A stretch of DNA of 64,000 bases from Crossaster papposus (lineage: Eukaryota > Echinodermata > Asteroidea > Velatida > Solasteridae): contig JBAIAA010000594.1 of assembly GCA_037893245.1 (NCBI GenBank), positions 806,001 to 870,000 on the forward strand, given 5' to 3'. Shown piece by piece: positions 3,565 through 24,128 of this stretch (the stretch's first letter is position 1; every line of letters begins with the position of its first letter). The position numbers and the translations under genes are program-made. The notes under the pieces were generated by a model. The model ran no database searches. It had not been told where the DNA came from and was given only the letters and a program-made list of their open reading frames with translations.

Positions 3565-3846
3565 GGGCCCAATTTCATAAAGCTGTTTACCAGTAAGCAC
3601 ATTTTTCTGCTTACTATAGCAGAAAAAATATGCTAAACGTAAACGTATTTCACCATCGTTTTTCAAAGTCTGCTATGCTAAGCACAACAACTATGTTGCG
3701 CGCGCCTCGTGTCGTCTGCTGCTGACCGCCTGGGGCGGCGCGTCGTCTGCTACTAAACTGTCGTCTGCTCGGCAAAAATAGGTGCACTATTTCGCGCCCA
3801 ATTTCAAGTTAAAAAGTGCACACAATTTATGATCAGCATCGTCATC

Positions 3847-4043
3847 ATGGCAGCCACAGATGAAAGTTGCGATAGCTCTTCTTTGAAGAAAAAGTCCAGT
3901 CCATTCAACCCAGAAATGGATATGGCTCTGGCAACGTCTTATGCCGAAGAAAAGGGGGTAATAGAAGGTGTTTTGCGAGGAACAAAACTCACAAACAAAC
4001 ATAAAACAGCAGCATGGGAGAGAGTAAGGGGGTGTGTCAACTC
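3847..4043 (+). CDS. Harbinger Myb/SANT-like DNA-binding protein, first exon
   Basis: I prefer the ATG at 3847 (context ATCATGG) over an in-frame ATG at 3829. The exon runs FNPEMDMALATSYAEEKGVI, then KLTNKHKTAAWERV. This has the spacing of the Myb/SANT-like domain found in the second gene of animal Harbinger elements (acidic helix, then TxxxKxxAWexI). It ends at a strong donor GTAAGT at 4044. Known Harbinger Myb-like proteins bind the transposon ends and help bring the transposase into the nucleus. The next exon was not recognised. Confidence 0.65.
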
Positions 4044-5991
4044 GTAAGTATTTTAAGTGGCTGTTCTGATCTGCCTAATCAATATGTATTAGGCCTAGTC
4101 CTTATACTCGTTCGCTTCTTTTAGACGATTATACTTTTTATGAAACATAATGGGTGCATTATTAATAATATGGCAGAGTTTTTGTAATATATGCATTGTG
4201 TTTTATTTATTTAATAATGATTGAAATTAGCTGTTTTGTTTATGTAAACATCACGCTGCAGCTAGTGCGAGTATAGTCTAAAATGATTGAACTTTGAACT
4301 TGTTTGATACTGAGCTGAGTAGTTTCACTTTCATCATATCCCATAGGCATTATCCGTGACAAAATTTTGTAGTGTCTCAATAGCACAACCGGAACAATTT
4401 GCCGTTTACGGTACACATTCACTACTTTACTTTCCAAAAATCAAATTAGGCTGGTCACTATCAATCAGTGCACAAAAACAAGTTCATATCATGATACTAC
4501 ATGTACAGTCATCATGAAACCACTCACTGTGACTAAAGTTCTATAAGACTCCAATGCCATGGTTTATCCAAGGCAAACTTTCTACAAAAAGTGTCATTAT
4601 CCTCATCAATTTCCTCATCTTTGCTGACCGCGGTATCCTTTCTTCTGCCATCTAAGTTCTTCGTCGCAGCTCCTTTTTGTTCCCGTTCTCTTCTTTCCCT
4701 GTTTTTGCTTGCTACTCTTTGCGACTGTTTGGCTCTCATTTCGTCTGTTACACTGTCTATAATGCTGTTTGCTTGTGCTTTCGATAAGTCCATACCAATT
4801 CTGTAAATTTGGAAGACAAAATAATGACATTTTTGTTAAACTGCTGTCATATCATAACCGGAATAAACAGTTGAAAAAATGTTGACACCACTTTTTTCTT
4901 CATATGTATCATCTGAATAAAGGTCCGTTAAAAATGTTGAAAAGACATGACTCTAGGGCTAAGACTAAGCATGGAGTACGTTCTTATTCCTCCATGGACT
5001 AATAAACATTTAGAATTTTGTAAGCGCACACACAATGTAAATATTTGGGAAAATTTCATGACTCCATTTGTCTTTGTACACAATCGGCGACGTAGCCGCG
5101 TCTACATACTACATTCTTTCCTAAAGTCTAAACAGTAAATATCATATTGAATAATGTGAAATCCGGTAAAGTTTACCGTCATGACCTTCGGCATTGTTTG
5201 TCGGGCATATGCATATGCGGGGTGGCCCATAACAAAAACTAACAAATCGTGCTTTTGCTGCACATGAGGTCACACATTGGCACGGTACCATAAATGAATG
5301 GGGAGTCTTTCTGGTGAAATAAAAAGATAACAAGATTCTCGCGGTAGGCCTATATCAACTTTCTTTCTCAGCTCCCTTTGTGTACATGTAGTTTTGGCTT
5401 GGTCATAAAATATCAGGTTTTTTTGTGGGCCACCCTGGCTGTGACTGTGTCATATGCTGGCCATGGCATGGGGATGGAGGTTGAGGTATACTAGTCAATA
5501 ACGCTGCATAAAACAGTTCATGATAGTTTATGATACAACTTACATTTTACAACAATTACAACTCAGTACAGTGTGTGGGCCGGCAGCCGGTCACTAACGA
5601 CGTTTTTACCACAAATCCCACAATATTTACGTTAAGCCTACACAGTCTGATTTAAACATACCTGGATTACTCGCAGAATTGAAATGGAGAACGTATCTCG
5701 GACTTTTGGATGTACAGCAAATGAAACCTGGAAGATCGATAAACTAGTGATACACTTGGCGCAGACGTCTTGTAAACATGTAAAAAAGATGTCGACTTCG
5801 CCCTACTTTTGAAGTTGAACTTTTAGACAAAATGTAGAGCAAAGTGCCATGACCAATGGAGGGCAGCAGAGCAGAAAAAAAGACTCGGGTCGTAAGTACG
5901 CACGATGTACATGTACGTAGGTACGGTACGTACGTACGTCCGTTATCATTATTATTATTATTATTTTTTTAGAGATCGGCGTGTACGTTAC

Positions 5992-6445
5992 CAGCGACCC
6001 TGAAGAAACCTTGTTTCAAGGAGAGGAGGCACTGCCTGTCATGGGGAGCGGGAAACTTAATATATTTTCGCTCATTTCCGAGTACTCTCAGCACTGCCTG
6101 CACAACTCTGTCGATTGCTCTCCATGCAGTTGGTGGGCTGACTCTTGGGCATGTATCGCCAACAACAATCGCAAATGTCCCCGAAGACAGATAGCGCAAG
6201 CCCAAACAAACTTGTAGAATCGGGGGAAGTGCCATGTTTCGGTCGGTTGTATGATTAAGAAGGGGCGTCAGTATCGTCACCAAAAATAAGATGGTGCGTG
6301 GTCGAAATCGATATCTTGACCAAACTTGGTCCTCCGTGAACATTTCTAAGGGGTTTTTCCTGTCGCGAAAAATGCGTCTTTGCCGTTCAATTGGATAATT
6401 ATGTCGGCGGTTTTGCCGGCGTCTTGCCTGTCTCCGCACTACCAT
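5992..6445 (-). CDS. HARBI1-like transposase, N-terminal exon
   Basis: The exon encodes about 151 residues from ATG at 6445. It has the HARBI1/DDE_Tnp_4 N-terminal signature: FRPRTILFLVTILTPLL, then NMALPPILQVCLGLRYLSSG and VSPPTAWRAIDRVVQAVL, a helix-turn-helix-like region. It reaches KQGFFRVAG, the position where HARBI1 continues into FPGVxGxIDGTH, and there splices at GCTG/GTAACG (donor at 5991-5990). No continuation with the DDE residues is visible downstream on the minus strand, so the gene is truncated or its next exon has decayed. Confidence 0.8.
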
Positions 6446-6729
6446 TTTGGAGATTTTTGATTGAAAATAAAAATGGCGTCGACAATAGGCACAAAATCTA
6501 CCAGTAAGCAGACGTTTTAGGTTGTTTAGGGCTTTAAGCAGAAAAAGGTTGCTTACGCGTTTTATGAAATAGAAATACCGCTAAGGGACACCCTGTAAGC
6601 ACAAAACGTGTGCTTACATGTTTTATGAAATTGGGCCTAGTTGTTTCAGCTGAACGCTTCGGAGATGCTCCGTAAAACGGTCAACTATAGTCGGCGCTTG
6701 GTATCTACGGCCACCTAAAATGCACTATT

Positions 6730-6846
6730 AATCTTGTCTACTGTATCACGTGTACTCGCAGTGGCATGCTCTACATTGGAATTACCAAGCGCCGACTTGC
6801 CGATCGTTTTCCGGAGTATCTCCCAAGAGTTAGGCTGAAACAACCT
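6730..6846 (+). mobile_element. GIY-YIG endonuclease fragment, Penelope-like
   Basis: One frame reads NLVYCITCTRSGMLYIGITK, then RRLADRFPEYL and VRLK. This is the GIY-YIG motif pair (VYxIxC...xYIG) with the downstream Arg helix (RRLxDRFxEHL) found at the C-terminus of Penelope-like retroelements. Only about 39 residues remain, wedged between the Harbinger at 3566-6638 and the MITE beginning at 6848. No reverse transcriptase is nearby. Some LINE-like elements carry related endonucleases, so the family call is probable rather than certain. Confidence 0.6.
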
Positions 6847-6847
6847 T

Positions 6848-7483
6848 GGGCCAATTTCACGGAGCTGCTAAGCACAAAATTTGCTTACCACAAAATAGTT
6901 TTGCTCATTAAAAACAGGTTACCAGCACAAATTATAATTATCTGATTATCAATCAAAAAAAATAAAGATCACGGGGGTTATGCATATCAACTATTTTTAA
7001 CGCGCTACTCACGCGTTGGCCTAAAACGTTCTAGTGTGACAGGGCCAGAAGGTCAGAGGAGAGCTTCTGCCGCCGGCCGTTGATCGCTGGCCACTCGACA
7101 GGCACACTACAGATGCCCGTCCGGCCGCCGTACGACCTGTACGAATTGGTTGGCACCCTGCCGGATACCGCAGGGGTATCGCAAGGACATAAGCAGGGCA
7201 CCGGACGAGTGCCTGCCGGACACCGGCCGATAAATGGGCCAATAATTCGACCCCATTTCCAAGAAAGTCGGCCGATTGCCGGTCGGCGACCCCCCGGGCC
7301 TCGTCATGGCAGCGTACGGGGCACTTTTAATTGTGACTGCGACCGCCATATCGCACGATCTTTCGCCGGCCTCTACACGCCGGCCGATGCCTAGAAATCG
7401 CACACGCCGCCCGGGCTCCGCTTTAATTGTGACTGGGGTATTAAGCAAATTGTTGTGCTTACATGTTTTATGAAATTTACCCC
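6848..7483. mobile_element. Harbinger-type MITE, GC-rich centre
   Basis: The left end GGGCCAATTTCACGGAG with GCTAAGCACAAAATTTGCTT pairs with the right end AAGCAAATTGTTGTGCTT plus ATGTTTTATGAAATTTACCC. The termini clearly belong to the same family as the 3566-6638 Harbinger (shared AATTTCA and TAAGCACA motifs). The 636-bp interior has no transposase. Its 7020-7440 section is GC-rich and full of GCCGGC/GGCCGG-type short palindromes, unlike the AT-rich surroundings. Frames of 65-129 codons there overlap on both strands and look like composition effects. Confidence 0.7.
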
Positions 7484-7535: not shown

Positions 7536-9008
7536 GAGTTCCTTAGTTTGAAGGAAGAGGTGGGCGGCGGACGAAAGAAGGTAACTGGCAACAAAAAGGT
7601 GGACCGCATCGCCCGAGTTCTGGCCGACGTACTGGAAGAATTCCCCGGGCAAGACAGAAATATCCACATTTCAATCAATACTGTGGTAAGTTTGCGGAAA
7701 CAAATTCAGTCTTTCCGAAAACGAAATTCTGCAAAATTGGTTAAAAGGATGTGGAGAGATAATTATTTAGGCATAAGGGAAAAAGTACGGGACATAATCC
7801 GATCTGGTTTAGTTGGTTCCCCAAACCCTCTCACCGACGCAGACCCCGACATCAGTGACGCAGACCCCGACGTTAGTGACGCAGACCCCGACATCGCCGA
7901 CGCAAACCCCGAGGTCAGTGACGCAGACCCCGACATCACGGACGCAGACCCCGACGTCAGTGACGCAGACCCCGACATCACCGATGCAGACCCCGACATC
8001 ACTGACGCAGACCCTGACGTCAGTGACGCAGATCCCGACATCACCGACGCAGACCCTGACGCCAGTGACGCAGATCCCGACATCACCGACGCAGACCCCG
8101 ACGTTACCGACGCAGACCCCGACGTCAGTGACGCAGACCCCGACGTTAGTGACGCAGACCCCGACATCGCCGACGCAGACCCCGACGTCAGTGACGCAGA
8201 CCCCGACATCACCGATGCAGACCCCGACGTAACTGACGCAGACCCCGACATCACCGATGCAGACCCCGACATTACTGACGCAGACCCCGACATCACTGAC
8301 GCAGACCCCGACATCACCGACGGTGTTAAGTTTTCTGATATTAAAGTAAAGACCCAAAATAGTCCAAATTGTTCACCCGTCTCTCCCAATATCACTTCTT
8401 CTGATGGTCATTCCAAGAGCTATCCACCTTCCCAAAATGAACCATCTTCCATCACATTATATTGCATTTGCAGGCAGCCCTATCATGATTCTAGGAGTAT
8501 GATTGCCTGCGATGACTGCAACGAGTGGTATCATTACCCATGTATTGATCTCGAACCTCAATCAAGACGCAAGTCATATCTAGACAAAGTTCAATTTTTA
8601 TGTGGTCGGAACGGTTGTAATGACGGAGAAAGGGTTTTTTCGATCAGTTTGTTTAATCAAAATTCATCAAACAAGCAGCATACATCGACATTTTCCAGTC
8701 CACCAAAACATCAATTAGATCCCAAATCTAAGGTAACTGGTTGGATGCAATCAAACCTAAATACTCCTGATCAACATGTCAAAGACAATAATTCATCAAC
8801 CGTCGATCCAACTTTCAATATTTCCCCCATACTCCCAACCAGATCACCCGAAAACACATCCTCAATCAAACCGCCAGATAATGATAGGTTCAAAGTAGAA
8901 AATACACCCTGCTCTTCCGAAGCAGTTGATTTGTCAAAGTTGATTTTGAAAATTCAATCAGTACACATGAAAATGAATCAATGCCTGAGACTGGGACTGG
9001 GAGTTTAA
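7536..9008 (+). CDS. Composite gene part 1: Asp-rich heptads and PHD finger
   Basis: A good acceptor (TTTGATTATCTGCGTAG) precedes 7536 and the frame is open from there. The first in-frame ATG is at 7749, so an upstream exon probably supplies the start. Section 1 (to about 7830) is basic. Section 2 is 23 Asp-rich heptads (7833-8315). Section 3 is a PHD finger (about 8457-8612): CICRQPYHDSRSMIACDDC, EWYHYPC and FLCGRNGC give the C4HC3 zinc ligands and the WYH core. A Ser/Asn-rich linker follows. PHD fingers usually read histone H3 tails. The frame stops at 9008 while the next frame, open from 8930, carries the continuation. It is not a family I can name. Confidence 0.75.
   Translation, partial: EFLSLKEEVGGGRKKVTGNKKVDRIARVLADVLEEFPGQDRNIHISINTVVSLRKQIQSFRKRNSAKLVKRMWRDNYLGIREKVRDIIRSGLVGSPNPLTDADPDISDADPDVSDADPDIADANPEVSDADPDITDADPDVSDADPDITDADPDITDADPDVSDADPDITDADPDASDADPDITDADPDVTDADPDVSDADPDVSDADPDIADADPDVSDADPDITDADPDVTDADPDITDADPDITDADPDITDADPDITDGVKFSDIKVKTQNSPNCSPVSPNITSSDGHSKSYPPSQNEPSSITLYCICRQPYHDSRSMIACDDCNEWYHYPCIDLEPQSRRKSYLDKVQFLCGRNGCNDGERVFSISLFNQNSSNKQHTSTFSSPPKHQLDPKSKVTGWMQSNLNTPDQHVKDNNSSTVDPTFNISPILPTRSPENTSSIKPPDNDRFKVENTPCSSEAVDLSKLILKIQSVHMKMNQCLRLGLGV
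7833..8315 (+). repeat. 21-bp repeat, 23 copies, coding Asp-rich heptads
   Basis: Twenty-three exact-length units encode (S/T/A)-D-A-D-P-D-(I/V), varying only at the first and last positions apart from one unit with ANPEV and one ending in A. No unit is out of phase, so the array stays coding. The resulting segment carries about 69 Asp residues in 161. Antisense frames through this array (7763-8395 and 7809-8357) are by-products of the 21-bp period. Confidence 0.95.
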
Positions 9009-10507
9009 CATACGAAATTGACAAAGTAATTCCTGAGGATGTGAGAAAAAATATGTGTGTTGAAAATGAAGAATATACCGATCAGTGTTGTAAATTTTGG
9101 ACTGTCGATTTACCACCACAAAAAAGATCGTCGTTCCACGTTGATAGGTCAGAGTGGAAAAAGTTAAAATCACAGCAATCAAAGAACACATTTCCGAAAT
9201 CTTGGATACATACATTCATTAAGGGACTGAAGAAATTACACCCTTACTGTTCATTTCAATTTATACGTCATTACGTTTCTAATTCGTTCAGACAACGCAT
9301 CAAATGTGCTTTTCGCGCAAATGGCTATTGTAGTTTTAGTGATTGTAGCGTAAAATTTCAATTAATCATGCAAAGTGAAATCAATTTAAAAGTGAATGTA
9401 ACATTTACAGGGAAAGTAAAGCATCAAAAAAATGAAAGACGAGCCAGATTTGTCAGAAATACCAAACGAGAGGCACTGAAAAAGGTTTTAAAATACAAAA
9501 AATCTAGACGCGAGCATCTGGACAATCTGAAAACTCTGGATGACGAAGTATTTATGTCAGGTTGTCGTGACGAAGCACCGAATAAGGGGGTACTTTATCA
9601 AATAAGTAGTGAGGGAAATCAACTTTCAAATTCTAGGGAAAGTGAGATACAGGCTCTTATTAGGATGATGACAAAACAACACGATTCAAATAAACGTATT
9701 CCAGGAATTCTAAGACACGTATCTTTAGGTCCCCCGTATGTGATTCTATATTCCCAAGACAGTGTAAAAATATATCATCATATTTCGTCAAGGGACATCA
9801 TTTATTTAGATGCAACTGGGTCAATCATACGCAATAATTCAACTTTTTGTGGATCAAAAAAGTACCAATTATATGATCTTGTAATCAGGCATCCACTAAT
9901 AATAATAGCAATCAAGTTAACATTTAAGAACAAACCGAAACGAAATCGATCTAGAAATACACAAGACATCAAACACACTGACAAAGACTCCTGTGCTTCA
10001 CCTTCCCCTAAAAAGAGGTGTGAAAACCCAAAAGTAGATCGAAAAACAAAAACACCCATTCCAAAATATCCCAAAGCAACAAAACTCCTCCCACGAGGCA
10101 TTCAAAACAACGCGGTATCTTGCTGGTGGATTTCAACTATACAAGCAATGAAGCCTTTCATTACATCTTCCAAATTAACCGAAACCAAATTCCAAGGAAG
10201 TGGCGTTTCTCTTTGGCGACAACTTCTACAAATTTTCCAAAGTTTAACATCAAATCAACAAAATGCAGTCTCCTTCGCTGCCGTTAAGAAAATAATAGAA
10301 CAGTGTGCACTTGAAATGGGCATTAACTGCAAACAACAACAAGATGCAGCGGAATTTTATTCACAGATTATGGTGCCGTTTTTAGAAAGTTCGTGTTTGA
10401 CAAATGAAATAGAAATTGCTAAAAGCGTTATGTGCCTTGATTGTGACGAAAGTGTGGTTGTTGAAAGTTCAACAATGGGTACCTTGCCGTTCAGGGAAGC
10501 AGTATAG
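8930..10507 (+). CDS. Composite gene part 2: DDE-like segment and USP N-terminal half
   Basis: This frame is open from 8930 (its stop TGA is at 8927-8929) and its first ATG is at 8981. It holds three pieces. First, a conserved-looking region with FRANGYCSFSDC and a basic stretch leading to IIYLDATGSIIRN (Asp codon at 9809). That motif resembles the first-Asp strand of DDE/RNase-H-fold transposases, but no second Asp or Glu strand follows. Second, a basic linker with nuclear-localisation-like clusters (KNKPKRNRSR, PKKR). Third, the start of a ubiquitin-specific protease: GIQNNAVSCWWISTIQAM is the Cys box (G-x-x-N...C...Q) and QQQDAAEFYSQI is the QQDAxEF box. The frame ends at 10507 in the middle of the USP domain. 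Confidence 0.75.
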   Translation, partial: FVKVDFENSISTHENESMPETGTGSLTYEIDKVIPEDVRKNMCVENEEYTDQCCKFWTVDLPPQKRSSFHVDRSEWKKLKSQQSKNTFPKSWIHTFIKGLKKLHPYCSFQFIRHYVSNSFRQRIKCAFRANGYCSFSDCSVKFQLIMQSEINLKVNVTFTGKVKHQKNERRARFVRNTKREALKKVLKYKKSRREHLDNLKTLDDEVFMSGCRDEAPNKGVLYQISSEGNQLSNSRESEIQALIRMMTKQHDSNKRIPGILRHVSLGPPYVILYSQDSVKIYHHISSRDIIYLDATGSIIRNNSTFCGSKKYQLYDLVIRHPLIIIAIKLTFKNKPKRNRSRNTQDIKHTDKDSCASPSPKKRCENPKVDRKTKTPIPKYPKATKLLPRGIQNNAVSCWWISTIQAMKPFITSSKLTETKFQGSGVSLWRQLLQIFQSLTSNQQNAVSFAAVKKIIEQCALEMGINCKQQQDAAEFYSQIMVPFLESSCLTNEIEIAKSVMCLDCDESVVVESSTMGTLPFREAV

Positions 10508-11898
10508 AACAGTGCTTGCAGGTTTACTTTGAGGATGAAATGGTAAACGGGGGTGCGGAATGTCTTTATTGTAAGGAAAGTCGGCCAAAGAAACTGATCA
10601 CTTCTCGTATACTCAACTCCCCGTCATTATTAGTATTGCAATTATTACGATTTAGAGCTAACGAAGGACAAGGGGAAAAACTAACAACAGAGGTCACTCC
10701 CAACATCATGATAAACTTGACAAGGTATTGCACCAACAACACTCCCTCACTATACCAACTACGGTCTGTAATTTCACACGAGGGTGGCTCGTTAAACAGT
10801 GGGCATTACATAACTTTTGTGTACAACACAGACGACAAAACATTTACAATATTCAACGACCAAAACGTGCAAGAATCCAATATACACAATTTTGTTCAAC
10901 AAACATCACAATCTGGCTACTTATTTTTCTACGATAAAATTGAGAATACAGAAAGCATGTGTCATTCAGAACCGTTTGTTAAGCAGCCTGTCCTTAATGT
11001 AACTGAGGAAGATGAAGAATTTGTGTGTCTTCTTTGGGCATCTTTCAATGAGAAGAATTTAGACTATGTTGCTGTGCGAGATGACGCAAGTCATAATTTT
11101 CTTTCATTTCACCATTTAGCAACAATCTGCAACAACCCAAAATCTGCACTTTTAAAGCGACTGAAAAATATATATCCAATGTATCAGCCTGGGTGGCTAA
11201 GTGAAGTTACAGTTAATTTTTACATCGGTCAATTATGTGAAATTGCGAATCGAAAATGTCCGAGTAAATTTGCAGTAGCTCATTGCAGCGACACATTAAA
11301 AATTGTAAACAATCAGCAAACACCAGAAACATTCAAGATAATTTCCAAGAAATGCTTTGTCAACAAAAAGATATCTGGTTGCATATTTTTTCCCTTAATA
11401 GAAAACAGGCATTTCACTCTGTACGTGATGGACAATGTCAGCAACCCTATAACATGCTACGACTCATTAAGTTGCAGCAGGGACAACCGACAAAAACTGA
11501 TCAGACATGGAACTGCCTTTTTCCGGTTCCTTCGCAATGGTAAAATGAATAGATACTGGAGTGAAATGCCTGGAGTCTTCCGTGACAACCAATCAGTTCC
11601 AATTAAACAAGCAAAGTGCCCTCAGCAGAAAGACGCATCCAGCTGTGGAGTATTCGCATGTCTCTATGCAGAAATGATATGCCTCAACGATCATACAATT
11701 AAGGACAATTCGGATGCTTATAGAATATACCTCACGCTTCAAATACTAAAAAGATCTCGTATAATAGATCCTACTTTGCGAAATCTGTTTGAAGCTTACA
11801 ATACTGAATACAAATACAACAGTATTATGTGCATTGCCGTCAATTTTTGTCAACATCCCCAAGAAAAAGAAGTAGGCCTATACGACTTCGCTATCTGA
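10498..11898 (+). CDS. Composite gene part 3: USP C-terminal half and Ulp1 protease
   Basis: No ATG starts this frame. It picks up the USP domain at SSIEQCLQVYFEDEMV, shows the zinc-ribbon pair CLYC, the LLVLQLLRFR strand (USP L-x-LxRF), and the His box YQLRSVISHEGGSLNSGHY followed by FNDQNV and GYLFFY. These are the general-base His and its Asp/Asn partner. After about residue 165 an Ulp1/SENP (C48) domain follows: WLSEVTVNFYIGQL, HFTLYVMD (His), CYDSL (Asp), and QQKDASSCGVFAC (Gln plus nucleophile Cys). All Ulp1 catalytic positions are present. Ulp1 proteases cleave SUMO or related modifiers; USPs cleave ubiquitin. The frame overlaps part 2 by about 10 bases, which looks like one frame change in an otherwise continuous USP domain. 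Confidence 0.8.
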   Translation, partial: SSIEQCLQVYFEDEMVNGGAECLYCKESRPKKLITSRILNSPSLLVLQLLRFRANEGQGEKLTTEVTPNIMINLTRYCTNNTPSLYQLRSVISHEGGSLNSGHYITFVYNTDDKTFTIFNDQNVQESNIHNFVQQTSQSGYLFFYDKIENTESMCHSEPFVKQPVLNVTEEDEEFVCLLWASFNEKNLDYVAVRDDASHNFLSFHHLATICNNPKSALLKRLKNIYPMYQPGWLSEVTVNFYIGQLCEIANRKCPSKFAVAHCSDTLKIVNNQQTPETFKIISKKCFVNKKISGCIFFPLIENRHFTLYVMDNVSNPITCYDSLSCSRDNRQKLIRHGTAFFRFLRNGKMNRYWSEMPGVFRDNQSVPIKQAKCPQQKDASSCGVFACLYAEMICLNDHTIKDNSDAYRIYLTLQILKRSRIIDPTLRNLFEAYNTEYKYNSIMCIAVNFCQHPQEKEVGLYDFAI

Positions 11899-11965: not shown

Positions 11966-12736
11966 AACAGGTCAAAAGAAATAAGTCCCCCCTGGGAAAT
12001 GTGCATTTTTATGGAAAACAGTTAGGCTCCTTGACCTGTTACAAAAATTTAAAATGTAGTCTGAAATGTTACACATTTATTGTGCACTAAAGTTTCACAG
12101 TTAACCTTCGCCTTGAAATGCTGCCATTTGTTAAATGTGGTGACCAAAATGACACTTCCTTGCATAGAGATTGGACAAATGGAGAAAATCATGTTTTACA
12201 AAACAAAATTATATTCTTTCCTCACTTCAATTAATTTTCCTAAAGTGTACAAATGTACACATGCATTTAATGTTTTTGTTTTTGTTTTAAATTTTCTAAA
12301 TTTACGAAGTACAGTAAATTAGAGTCACCCAAGCAAAACAATTTGTTTAAAGCATAAAGGTTTTGTGGAAATGGAAGGGTTTTTTGGGGTCCTTTCGTTT
12401 CAGTAATGAAATTAAAAACAAAAACAAAAACATTAAATGCTTGTTTACATTTTGTACACTTGAAAATTAATTGAAGTGAGTAAAGAATATTAAACAATTT
12501 TGTAAAAACATGATTTTCTCGATTTGTCCAATCCCTATGCAAGAAAGTGTCATTTTTTATTTAATAAATGGCAGCATTTCAAGGCGAAGGTTAACTGTTG
12601 GGTGAAACTTTATTGCACAATAAATGTGTAACATTTCAGACTACACTTTACATTTGTGTAACAGGTTATAAGGAGCCTAACTGTCTTCCAAGAAAGTGCA
12701 CATTTCCCAGGGGGACTTATTTCCTTTGACCTGTTT
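11966..12736. repeat. Foldback with ~310-bp imperfect inverted arms
   Basis: The left arm begins AACAGGTCAAAAGAAATAAG and the right arm ends with its complement CTTATTTCCTTTGACCTGTT. The arms (about 11966-12275 and 12425-12736) match along their length, including TGGGAAATGTGCA, CAGTTAGGCTCCTT, TTCGCCTTGAAATGCTGCCA and ATTGGACAAAT with their complements. About 150 bp of AT-rich spacer separates them. It starts 68 bp after the Ulp1 stop codon. It may be an independent foldback or a structural part of the element that carries the composite gene; I found no matching arm upstream of 7536. Confidence 0.8.
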
Positions 12737-17654: not shown

Positions 17655-18594
17655 CGTGAGGGGGATTTGGTTTATAGACGTCTTTACACTCCGTGCACAA
17701 TATTAAAGCATAATAAATGGGAAAATGATGTCATTTTGGTGAGGCTGAAAATAATTATTATAGTAACTGATTTACCCTTTAATATCCAAAATTAAGTGTG
17801 CCCTGTAGAATGATCTTTCAGATTCTGCAATAAAAAAAATTACTTTGAAGATTTTGGGAGGGATAATCTTTTTTAAAGACGTCTTTAAACTTTGTGCATA
17901 AAGTCTATGGAGAAAGGTGTAATTTTGAGTTGTCGAGGATGGACATTATTAGTGGCCCGATTCAGCCTTATCCAAAATTAAGTGTGCCCTGTAGCACGAT
18001 CTTTCAGATTCTGCAATAAAACAAATTACTTTGAAGGTTTTGGGAGGGATAATCTTTTTTAAAGACGTCTTTAAACTTTGTGCATAAAGTCTATGGAGAA
18101 AAGTGTAATTTTGAGTTGTCGAGGATGGACATTATTAGTGGCCCGATTCAGCCTTATCCAAAATTAAGTGTGCCCTGTAGCACGATCTTTCAGATTCTGC
18201 AATAAAAAAAATTACTTTGAAGATTTTGGGAGGGATAATCTTTTTTAAAGACGTCTTTAAACTTTGTGCACAAAGTCTATGGAGAAAAGTGTAATTTTGA
18301 GTTGTCGAGGATGGACATTATTAGTGGCCCGATTCAGCCTTATCCAAAATTAAGTGTGCCCTGTAGCACGATCTTTCAGATTCTGCAATAAAAAAAATTA
18401 CTTTGAAGATTTTGGGAGGGATAATCTTTTTTAAAGACGTCTTTAAACTTTGTGCATAAAGTCTATGGAGAAAGGTGTAATTTTGAGTTGTCGAGGATGG
18501 ACATTATTAGTGGCCCGATTCAGCCTTATCCAAAATTAAGTGTGCCCTGTAGCACGATCTTTCAGATTCTGCAATAAAAAAAATTACTTTTAAT
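17655..18594 (+). repeat. 186-bp tandem satellite, about five copies
   Basis: The phrase AGTGTGCCCTGTAG recurs at 17795, 17981, 18167, 18353 and 18539, exactly 186 bp apart each time. The three central units are nearly identical. The leading unit (about 17655-17794) is clearly diverged and the last is cut off after AATTACTTTT. Each unit contains CAATAAAA and GACGTCTTTAAA. The block carries no reading frame and is short for a centromeric array, so it is a local satellite or a piece of a longer element. Confidence 0.95.
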
Positions 18595-18767
18595 ATGTTT
18601 ATTTATTTTGAATTTCGTTCAATGAAATCGTAAGACTGATTGGGCAGCTTGCGTGGTACGTTCTCGCGCAGACGACGTCTTTTTGGGCCTCCTTTTGATG
18701 CATGTGTTTTATATTTCAGGAGTTCGAGGATGAGTTCGCGGATGAGTTCGAGGATGGAAATCGCGGA

Positions 18768-18830
18768 TAGCTTTGGACTAGATTTGGTGCCAAGTCGGTA
18801 ATAGCGGTCCACTCGGTATATACAGGGGGG
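18768..18830 (+). mobile_element. Fragment of TAGACTTG-type MITE
   Basis: The stretch TGGTGCCAAGTCGGTAATAG followed by CGGTCCACTCGGTAT is nearly identical to the left 60 bp of the complete copy at 39022-39168. The rest of the element is missing here and a G6 run follows. Confidence 0.6.
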
Positions 18831-19055: not shown

Positions 19056-20120
19056 CTTTATTCGTTTTCAGTTTTGTACACAACCTATGACAATCGCTAG
19101 CGAATTCTATGCGAGCACTCTGATTGGTTCAGATTCCAGAGGGGATAAAAAAGGATGAGCAGCTTTATAGAGCATGTATTCTACGCTGCTTCGCGTATTG
19201 TAATGGTACCCGGTACCACTGATCTCTACAAACTGGATAGGTCGAGCGTACATTGATAGGACTAGCGAGCCGTGAAGTGTTGCCTTCGTATCGTGCATGC
19301 GTACCGTATACCGTACCGTAGACCGTCGAAAGTGACACAGTGGCAGTACCCCACGAACAAACCAATTAATGTGCCAATTGAATTTTCATGAAGCACACTG
19401 ACATTTTCTCTGTTTAATTTTATCATAAACCTGGCACTTTTTTATTGTCTGAATGTAAAATTAAATCAACAATTTCGAAAAATGTCGTTTTTCCTTTCCC
19501 TATGGTTTGTGCATAAAGTTATGATGTGGAATTATCCTCCCCCCCCAAAAAAAAAAAAAAATAATAATAATAAATAAAAAAGTAAAAATCTTGAAAATAC
19601 TTGTCCGACATTTCCCATAGACTTTGCACTGCATTGCATCTTCTTACACGAATGTCTTGTATCTTTTCCCAAAAATAGGTCTATTTAGCATTCAAACTTG
19701 GCGTAAACATGTAATTCTTGGGTGTTATAGTTATGTTTAACTTAATCTTCCTCATCAAACTGGATTGTTTTTGTGATATTAACTTCGTTTCCTGCGATAT
19801 TATATTCGTTTTCTCGGTCGTGCGCTAATACTAGCACGAACGTGTGTACGCCGGCAGTGTTTTTAAACCACCTTCACAGATCTCGTACAACACATGCGGT
19901 TAAAAGAGGTGTTTAGATACTATTCTTTTTTACGTAGATCATTTTCATTACTTCAAGGGTTCCCAAAGTATTGAGAAGAACTCCCCATGTAACGGAATGG
20001 ATGAGTCAACATTTGCATAGCAGCGCGCCATTGGATCTCACCGCAGAAATACATTGCATATGTATTGCGCTGCACGCATCTATATAATAATACGCTACTC
20101 TCTGTCTGTCTGTGTGTCTG
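19056..20120. other. Non-coding stretch before the 144-bp array
   Basis: Mixed sequence with an A-run and AAT triplets at about 19546-19575 and a (TGTC)n stretch at 20102-20120 leading straight into the array. Frames on the minus strand (19107-19365) have no recognised motif. No gene is called. Confidence 0.4.
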
Positions 20121-21415
20121 TCTGTGCGCGCTTTTTCGTCCCCTTCCCGGGGTCGTGCGGCGTTCGAACTCGGTGGGTGGGTCCGGCTCGGTCCCCGCGA
20201 GAACCAGTTTGCATTCGCTGGGGCGTGCGAGGTCAAAGGTCATCTAGGGGTCACCTTTTTGAATCTGTGCGCGCTTTTTCGTCCCCTTCCCGGGGTCGTG
20301 CGGCGTTCAAACTCGGTGGGTGGGTCCGGCTCGGTCCCCGCGAGAACCAGTTTGCATTCGCTAGGGCGTACGAGGTCAAAGGTCATCTAGGGGTCACCTT
20401 TTTGAAGTCTGTGCGCGCTTTTTCGTCCCCTTCCCGGGGTCGTGCGGCGTTCAAACTCGGTGGGTGGGTCCGGCTCGGTCCCCGCAAGAACCAGTTTGCA
20501 TTCGCTAGGGCGTACGAGGTCAAAGGTCATCTAGGGGTCACCTTTTTGAAGTCTGTGCGCGCTTTTTCGTCCCCTTCCCGGGGTCGTGCGGCGTTCAAAC
20601 TCGGTGGGTGGGTCCGGCTCGGTCCCCGCAAGAACCAGTTTGCATTCGCTAGAGCGTACGAGGTCAAAGGTCATCTAGGGGTCACCTTTTTGAAGTCTGT
20701 GCGCGCTTTTTCGTCCCCTTCCCGGGGTCGTGCGGCGTTCAAACTCGGTGGGTGGGTCCGGCTCGGTCCCCGCAAGAACCAGTTTGCATTCGCTAGAGCG
20801 TACGAGGTCAAAGGTCATCTAGGGGTCACCTTTTTGAAGTCTGTGCGCGCTTTTTCGTCCCCTTCCCGGGGTCGTGCGGCGTTCAAACTCGGTGGGTTGG
20901 TCCGGCTCGGTCCCCGCAAGAACCAGTTTGCATTCGCTAGAGCGTACGAGGTCAAAGGTCATCTAGGGGTCACCTTTTTGAAGTCTGTGCGCGCTTTTTC
21001 GTCCCCTTCCCGGGGTCGTGCGGCGTTCAAACTCAGTGGGTGGGTCCGGCTCGGTCCCCGCAAGAACCAGTTTGCATTCGCTAGGGCGTACGAGGTCAAA
21101 GGTCATCTAGGGGTCACCTTTTTGAAGTCTGTGCGCGCTTTTTCGTCCCCTTCCCGGGGTCGTGCGGCGTTCAAACTCGGTGGGTTGGTCCGGCTCGGTC
21201 CCCGCAAGAACCAGTTTGCATTCGCTAGAGCGTACGAGGTCAAAGGTCATCTAGGGGTCACCTTTTTGAAGTCTGTGCGCGCTTTTTCGTCCCCTTCCCG
21301 GGGTCGTGCGGCGTTCAAACTCAGTGGGTGGGTCCGGCTCGGTCCCCGCAAGAACCAGTTTGCATTCGCTAGGGCGTACGAGGTCAAAGGTCATCTAGGG
21401 GTCACCTTTTTGAAG
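20121..21415 (+). repeat. 144-bp tandem array, nine copies, each with DR1 and DR5 sites
   Basis: Units begin TCTGTGCGCGC at 20121 (143 bp long), then at 20264, 20408, 20552, 20696, 20840, 20984, 21128 and 21272 (144 bp each). Every unit has AGGTCAAAGGTCA, a perfect direct repeat with one-base spacing, and this continues as AGGTCATCTAGGGGTCA, a direct repeat with five-base spacing. These are the DR1 and DR5 layouts bound by RXR/HNF4-type and RAR-type nuclear receptors. Because 144 is a multiple of three, a 523-codon frame runs through the array by chance. Units 6-7 and 8-9 share the same variant pair, indicating a recent 288-bp duplication. Confidence 0.95.
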
Positions 21416-21548
21416 TTGGTCGGATCGTGCTTAAACTCGGTCAACATGTATCCACAATCCCCATCCATCCAGGGAAGTAGCTACAAACCCGAGAACCGAC
21501 AAACCCCGGGTGACCGCCTAGTATATATGAATAACAGTCGAGAACGTA

Positions 21549-22178: not shown

Positions 22179-22432
22179 AACTCGCCCCCTGACCGACTCG
22201 CCCCCTGACCGACTCGCCCCTGACCGACTCGCCCCTGACCGACTCGCCCCCTGGCCGACTCGCCCCCTGGCCGACTCGCCCCCTGGCCGACTCGCCCCCT
22301 GGCCGACTCGCCCCCTGGCCGACTCGCCCCCTGGCCGACTCGCCCCCTGGCCGACTCGCCCCCTGGCCGACTCGCCCCCTGGCCGACTCGCCCCCTGGCC
22401 GACTCGCCCCCTGGCCGACTCGCCCCCTGGAT
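22179..22432 (+). repeat. 16-bp minisatellite, left arm of foldback, 16 units
   Basis: The unit is GACTCGCCCCCTGGCC. The outermost four units have GACC in place of GGCC and two of them are 15 bp long. Inner units are near-identical, which suggests recent homogenisation. Open frames on both strands (22032-22448 and 22111-22434) reflect the 48-bp (three-unit) reading cycle and are not genes. Confidence 0.95.
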
Positions 22433-23984: not shown

Positions 23985-24128
23985 GGGGCGAGTCGGCCAG
24001 GGGGCGAGTCGGCCAGGGGGCGAGTCGGCCAGGGGGCGAGTCGGCCAGGGGGCGAGTCGGCCAGGGGGCGAGTCGGTCAGGGGGCGAGTCGGTCAGGGGG
24101 CGAGTCGGTCAGGGGGCGAGTTGACCTA
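23985..24128 (-). repeat. 16-bp minisatellite, right arm of foldback, 9 units
   Basis: This is the same unit as the left arm on the opposite strand. The three units nearest the outer end have the GACC-type variant (read on the minus strand), mirroring the order of variants in the left arm, so both arms share outer and inner unit types. Confidence 0.95.

Follow-up and report, generated by a model that had tools for sequence, protein, structure and literature searches.

A starfish locus with PHD, ubiquitin-protease and Ulp1-protease domains is very probably a decayed foldback-type DNA transposon akin to Mutator/Rehavkus elements

Why do a PHD finger, a ubiquitin-specific protease (USP) domain and an Ulp1-type protease domain follow one another on the same strand of an echinoderm genome, divided over three reading frames? 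The question is raised by positions 7536 to 11898 of a 64,000-bp stretch of Crossaster papposus DNA (the window; C594:806001-870000 of a 1.02-Gb assembly, C-numbers denoting contigs of the same genome throughout). The original prediction, made from the sequence itself, was of a composite gene encoding a mobile or domesticated protein. We find that the locus very probably holds a defunct copy of a large DNA transposon of the foldback type, with Mutator/Rehavkus elements as its relatives. The three domains do belong to one gene, as had been proposed, but this is not a composite host gene: intact relatives identify the pieces in the window as remnants of a single transposase gene. Mobility is likewise upheld, by the multicopy nature of this DNA transposon and by 9-bp target-site duplications (TSDs) in a sister family, whereas domestication is not, the window copy being decayed.

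All three predicted domains were borne out by Pfam and by the positions of their motifs, and the two proteases by matches in PDB as well. The main exon begins, on the plus strand, with an open frame at 7536-9008 that encodes a basic N-terminal region, a coding minisatellite (7831-8322; 23.4 copies of a 21-bp unit according to Tandem Repeats Finder, giving a DADPDxx repeat) and the PHD finger (8457-8612, core 8457-8543; PF00628, E 1.7e-7; family profile, E 5.5e-43). At its other end, the third frame (10465-11898), open up to the stop codon, matched the Pfam profiles UCH (E 3e-22), over the second half of that domain only, and Peptidase_C48 (E 1.1e-10); its PDB matches were USP36 and USP2 (~1e-9) and SENP1 (7e-7). 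The middle frame (8930-10507) taken alone gave no Pfam match. It encodes the N-terminal portion of the transposase, whose first catalytic Asp is kept in YLDATGSI (9803-9835), and then the first half of the USP domain (10088-10492), which was recognized by a profile of its own family (E 2.6e-71), a measure of family identity and not an independent proof. In an intact relative, UCH profile positions 2-254 are covered (E 1.7e-25).

Both proteases of the window retain their characteristic motifs. The USP domain (10088-10938), with a frame lesion near 10480, has its Cys box GIQNNAVSCWWISTIQ at 10097-10144, QQQDAAEF at 10334-10357, HEGGSLNSGHY at 10777-10809 and FNDQNV at 10852-10869. In the Ulp1 region (10993-11805), delimited by Pfam and PDB comparison, the His, Asp, Gln and Cys motifs are represented by HFTLY (from 11410), CYDSL (from 11455) and QQKDASSCGVF (11623-11655). 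The UCH profile together with the Cys, His and Asp/Asn boxes places the former among the USP peptidases (C19); profile, His, Asp, Gln and Cys place the latter among the Ulp1/SENP peptidases (C48).

The division over three frames is explained by the relatives. When the USP/Ulp1 frame was used as a query, 79 pieces of the genome matched, which at a merging distance of 10 kb correspond to 48 loci, and at least 26 of these have a transposase piece no more than 10 kb away; both locus counts are lower bounds. The search for further copies and for the same domain order, which the original prediction had called for, also yielded relatives in a single frame. Intact copies encode, in one open frame, a PHD finger, a DDE transposase, USP and Ulp1, in that order. 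The open frames measure 1807 (C96 and C364), 2024 (C7), 2062 (C489) and 2088 residues (C360), and all four domains are present in those of 1807, 2024 and 2088 residues. The C489 frame stops before Ulp1; in the 98%-identical copy on C64, USP and Ulp1 share one frame of 839 residues. In the C241 copy, Ulp1 is found in the next frame. Some 650 residues separate the PHD finger from the USP domain in these relatives. We identify this region as a predicted DDE-type transposase because 18 of 18 aligned relatives share, without change, the Asp of a DAT motif, another Asp and an HxCxxH motif, and all 16 that reach the corresponding column share a Glu.

Since other copies are open throughout in a single frame, the frame changes near 8930 and 10480 in the window are lesions, not introns. 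Splicing of the three window frames had been considered and is ruled out on the same grounds. In addition, a blastn comparison with the C7 copy, together with residue positions, places an internal-deletion scar at 9901-9907, where ~1.2 kb is absent. The loss corresponds to C7 residues ~989-1388 and includes the second Asp (1038), HxCxxH (1082) and the Glu (1308). The middle frame fuses the two ends of a deleted transposase; used alone as a query, it had no relative among 3,225 candidates. A version of the same copy on C146 matches it at 99.7% identity along 13.2 kb, shares its frames and has similar flanks; it is therefore probably an allele or a duplicate of the window locus rather than an independent insertion, that is, one locus counted twice.

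Does the gene lie in a recognizable element? The flanking inverted repeats that had been suggested as a check are present and are built of tandem repeats, but the window copy has lost its 5' terminal segment and its 3' end is degenerate. Long copies measure ~20-34 kb, and in the two families examined their inverted termini consist of tandem repeats with units of 186-202 bp. The C96 element (C96:1485295-1508468) comprises 23,174 bp, and its inverted arms, consisting mostly of ~202-bp tandem units, show 93.6% similarity along 4,024 bp; the C362 element, related to that of the window, is ~34 kb long. Arrays of opposite orientation occur at both ends in C96, C594 (the window copy), C146, C362 and C164. 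In the window element, ~4.3 units of a 186-bp repeat form the 3' terminal array (17783-18593, plus strand), the inverted partner of which lies outside the window, 7.5-8.4 kb ahead of its first position, at C594:797593-798464. The 3' terminal segment that follows (18594-18778, plus strand) ends in a degenerate form of the family terminus, ACCTGTCCAAAGC, which is found at C7, C362 (3' end), C164, C617 and C535. The C96-family terminus is ACCTGACTG. Across copies, arrays with units of 186-415 bp are found behind the open reading frame and coding repeats of 21-147 bp within it. The C164 copy, which has arrays at both ends and no match among those listed in the protein searches, is probably non-autonomous or rearranged.

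Target-site duplications were assessed in the seven C96-family copies with both termini readable, C911 and C738 being left out because their 5' ends are truncated. Four (C96, C584, C671 and C762) have a 9-bp TSD matching at 9/9 positions, and two, C259 (~1 kb long) and C601 (~5 kb), match at 8/9. The duplicated sequences are varied. The flank of the C7 element at C7:2696701-2697000 has nine paralogues, 84-87% identical, on C518 and C632, among which empty sites might be found.

The 186-bp terminal unit also forms long arrays, 80-97% alike, which were seen, among the matches listed, at C447:136-146 kb, C1153:276-287 kb, C1021:10-18 kb and C657:592-596 kb. These four contigs gave no match in the USP/Ulp1 or transposase protein searches, and we read the arrays as satellite-like offshoots of transposon termini. 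Termini built of tandem repeats may in this way seed satellite DNA.

The gene has counterparts beyond this genome. A profile was searched against 5.8 billion proteins, of which the 7,986 best candidates (those with most words in common) were scored, and at least 16 matches were obtained: 12 with the transposase motifs and 4 (P0015-P0018) resembling host USPs. Both UCH and C48 are present in 3 of the 12, namely P0004 from the pearl oyster Pinctada imbricata, P0005 and P0006, in the order transposase, USP, Ulp1; identity of these foreign proteins to the query is 26-27%. P0003 has UCH and ends early, and P0011, from Actinia, has a sub-threshold start of UCH. In P0014, an OTU domain precedes the transposase and Ulp1 (C48) follows it, OTU standing in place of USP. 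A PHD finger was detected in P0012. Five of the 12 are without a Pfam domain; among them, the goby protein P0007 ends in motifs that look Ulp1-like by eye. A midpoint-rooted tree of 18 cores unites the families of this genome, a fish clade, a bivalve-type clade and Actinia in one group (100/99), outside which lie C767, P0012, P0013 and the long-branch P0014. If the midpoint rooting is right, USP and Ulp1 would be ancient within the main group, with USP lost from the fish copies. The distant relative C767 (129501-135500) encodes a PHD finger and a transposase, followed by a region with YLDNTCTIDNMLLML; by eye this resembles a degenerate USP Cys box, and the family USP profile had no match there. 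Viral contigs scanned with the third frame of the window gave no match, nor did a phage collection scanned with the transposase. Against PDB, the transposase profile had a single match, to an unrelated protein (E 0.035).

The main exon may not be the whole gene. Exons 5' of it are conserved between families and encode an SGNH esterase with the blocks YGDSQWRS, VGTNN and DGVHLS, and we infer that they are spliced to the main exon. In the window, the SGNH/GDSL exon with block III (AVGTNN) lies at 752-910 on the plus strand (tblastn E 4.6e-12 and 5e-13 with exons of other families, 1.3e-32 with the C7 exon) and that with block V (DGVHLS) at 1795-2088 on the same strand (E 5e-36, 1.7e-30 and 4e-83). 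The GDS exon of the window family is seen in the flank, just outside the window, at -863 to -705. Three joined C360 exons matched Lipase_GDSL_2 of Pfam at E 1.4e-11 and the C96 join did so at 1.3e-10; the block V exon alone of two relatives scored 5e-4 and 1e-5, both under the curated cut-off. The closest PDB match of the C360 join was 4c1b, "ORF1-encoded protein" (E 4.6e-4), which we take to be the esterase of a zebrafish long interspersed nuclear element (LINE). ORF1 of CR1/L2-type LINEs carries an esterase and a PHD finger. The same modules recur here, with the SGNH esterase upstream of, and the PHD finger in, a DDE transposase gene, and no reverse transcriptase was found by Pfam in the main-exon frames scanned. 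A C2H2-like finger exon, without support from Pfam, is present in C7 and C362 and had no match in the window.

Among described transposons, the nearest kind appears to be the Mutator/Rehavkus-like and foldback-type elements. The TSDs fit Mutator/Rehavkus and the layout may do so, the residues expected of it (Asp in a DAT motif, second Asp, C(2)H and Glu) being present. We call the element like these and not a proven member because the profile of Mutator-like elements (MULEs) was unmatched and an hhalign comparison was only suggestive: aligned with just two MULEs of this genome, 17 cores gave E 0.002 at a probability of 13% with both Asps in register, and four controls gave E 0.15-0.51. The TSDs of the C96 family agree with those of Mutator-like elements (8-11 bp, typically 9). 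Rehavkus, an outgroup of Mutator known from arthropods and annelids, has a 9-bp TSD, a PHD finger and a minisatellite (PMC6446971). Compared by published description, not by sequence, the present element resembles it in the 9-bp TSD, the PHD finger in the transposase, the minisatellite sequence and the predicted DDE transposase. It differs in its echinoderm host, in the ~4-kb inverted arms of C96 as opposed to terminal inverted repeats of 26-400 bp in the table of that paper, and in the presence of USP, Ulp1 and an esterase, ubiquitin, protease and peptidase being unmentioned in the paper's main text (PMC6446971). The mitochondrial code of the genome agrees with an echinoderm host: where 600 bases of COX1 were aligned to mouse-type COX1 from PDB, 5 of 5 AAA codons fell at Asn, 10 of 13 ATA codons at Ile and 2 of 4 AGA codons at Ser, as counted by eye. 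Echinoderms share this code with some flatworms, but the strong match to vertebrate COX1 makes an echinoderm the most likely source.

Long inverted termini of tandem repeats, as found here, are the mark of foldback elements. Those of Drosophila have TSDs of 8-10 bp and termini that contain 220-bp repeats, and sea urchin is named among the organisms bearing such elements (PMC4079207). Tetris and other foldback-type elements share with ours the inverted termini of ~200-bp tandem repeats and the 8-10-bp TSD; for Tetris, however, its authors found no copy with a transposase gene (PMC4079207), whereas some of the copies here have a long open transposase frame. Foldback-type termini hence gain a long coding partner that described elements such as Tetris lack.

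The association of modifier proteases with transposases has precedents, and the expectation that Ulp1 and PHD ride on transposons agrees with the literature, in which Ulp1, OTU, C19 and PHD are each described on transposases (PMC2836005, PMC6446971). Ginger1 transposases carry a C-terminal Ulp1 or OTU, and Ginger1-9_HM combines Ulp1 with PHD (PMC2836005). They are alike in bearing a modifier protease and, in that one family, a PHD finger, but unlike in their Gypsy-integrase-type transposase and CCGT-type TSDs; moreover, the families in the table of that paper have Ulp1 or OTU, and none combines USP with Ulp1 (PMC2836005). In our element, the 9-bp TSD is of varied sequence and no integrase match was found by Pfam in the sequences scanned. 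Ulp1-bearing Mutator elements and a Trichomonas transposase with a C19 peptidase, both cited within PMC2836005, show the same link between protease and transposase, with one such protease each. The main text of a recent survey of arthropod MULEs mentions none of Ulp1, ubiquitin, protease or PHD (PMC13359780). No report of USP and Ulp1 in one element was found among the papers listed in the literature searched, which excluded Repbase reports and most subscription papers.

Several results weigh against our assignment. No transposase piece was found, among the matches listed, at 22 of the 48 USP/Ulp1 loci, for which decayed copies are the likely explanation. The PHD finger, present in 4 of 5 families, had no match in the main exon of C241 or in the bivalve-type proteins. 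The MULE profile PF10551 listed 1 of 18 members, at E 2.6, and none of the rest up to E 5, and the copies studied here are absent from the PF10551 match list of this genome. As to the TSDs, C364, the seventh of the C96-family copies, is without a matching one, and neither of the two window-family copies tried showed a clean duplication: the flanks of C164 are unlike, and C362 would match at 8/9 only if three terminal bases are assumed lost and was not counted.

What might two modifier proteases do on a transposase? Between families, synonymous sites are saturated (proportion of differences pS 0.72-0.89) and nonsynonymous differences (pN) amount to 0.23-0.47, alike in the transposase, USP and Ulp1 regions; between C96 and C364, <2% of synonymous sites differ in each region. 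The USP motifs (Cys, QQD, GHY and F/Y-N/D-D) and the Ulp1 motifs (H, D, Q and C) are kept in four aligned families. These sequence comparisons indicate purifying selection on transposase, USP and Ulp1 alike. We propose that the transposase would bind the repeat-built termini, that its Asp-Asp-Glu site would cut in a cut-and-paste manner and that insertion would occur with a 9-bp stagger, while the PHD finger would read a histone tail. In the transpososome, the tethered USP and Ulp1 could strip ubiquitin and SUMO from the transposase or from silencing or repair proteins at donor and target sites, and this removal would keep the enzyme stable and the chromatin permissive. Given the folds and the conserved catalytic residues, we consider such a role of the two proteases plausible, with about an even chance of being correct.

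Alternatively, in the same transposon, the proteases might mature the element's own long protein by cleavage between its esterase, PHD, transposase and protease parts. A main-exon product of 1,807-2,088 residues with many domains would suit this explanation, and the clan of the C48 fold includes viral maturation proteases. The UCH fold, however, serves ubiquitin removal, and the pairing of Ulp1 with OTU, an unrelated deubiquitinase fold, in P0014 fits modifier removal better, an argument that rests on one long-branch protein. We therefore regard maturation as unlikely. Mutator-like elements also tend to acquire host gene fragments (PMC6446971), and both proteases might have been captured from host genes and travel along as functionless passengers; but the retained catalytic residues, the apparent purifying selection on both proteases across families and the recurrence of this domain order in proteins of other animals with 26-27% identity to the query make this very improbable. 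That three unrelated pieces were joined by chance, or that this is a host gene, as the three frames of the window might suggest, can be dismissed: single-frame relatives exist in multiple copies, with terminal repeats and target duplications, and one gene unites transposase, USP and Ulp1 both in the families of this genome and in three foreign proteins.

Removal of modifiers by the two proteases would touch on a wider issue. Transposases that carry a single modifier protease have long suggested a role of ubiquitin and SUMO in transposition, and the Ginger1 authors proposed that both pathways participate (PMC2836005). An element that has both proteases, apparently under selection, and exists in near-identical copies makes such a role directly testable. 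More tentatively, and with rather less confidence than in the modifier-removal role itself, the lineage may be animal-wide, perhaps a superfamily apart from Mutator that is defined by a deubiquitinase plus a deSUMOylase, in which USP and OTU are swappable and Ulp1 is kept, with esterase and PHD modules exchanged with LINE elements. If USP and OTU are indeed swappable and Ulp1 is kept, removal of both modifiers would be part of the transposition or anti-silencing mechanism.

Some further features of the window deserve mention. Upstream of the main exon, a ~3.07-kb insertion at 3567-6633 with 16-bp inverted ends (GGGCCCAATTTCATAAA-like) is absent from C7 and C362. Inside it, a minus-strand frame of 203 residues (5972-6580) perhaps resembles a Harbinger transposase, without support from Pfam. 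A sub-threshold GIY-YIG match (Pfam, E 8.5e-4) at 6691-6945 lies in a stretch common to C7 and C362 and therefore older than the split of these copies. Directly 3' of the stop codon, an imperfect palindrome of 0.77 kb (11966-12735), kept in C7, C362 and C146, either goes back to an ancient nested insertion or belongs to the element itself. Beyond the 3' terminus, two arrays of 16-bp units in inverted orientation (22180-22430 and 23985-24121) are perhaps the termini of another element, and a 144-bp array occupies 20120-21416.

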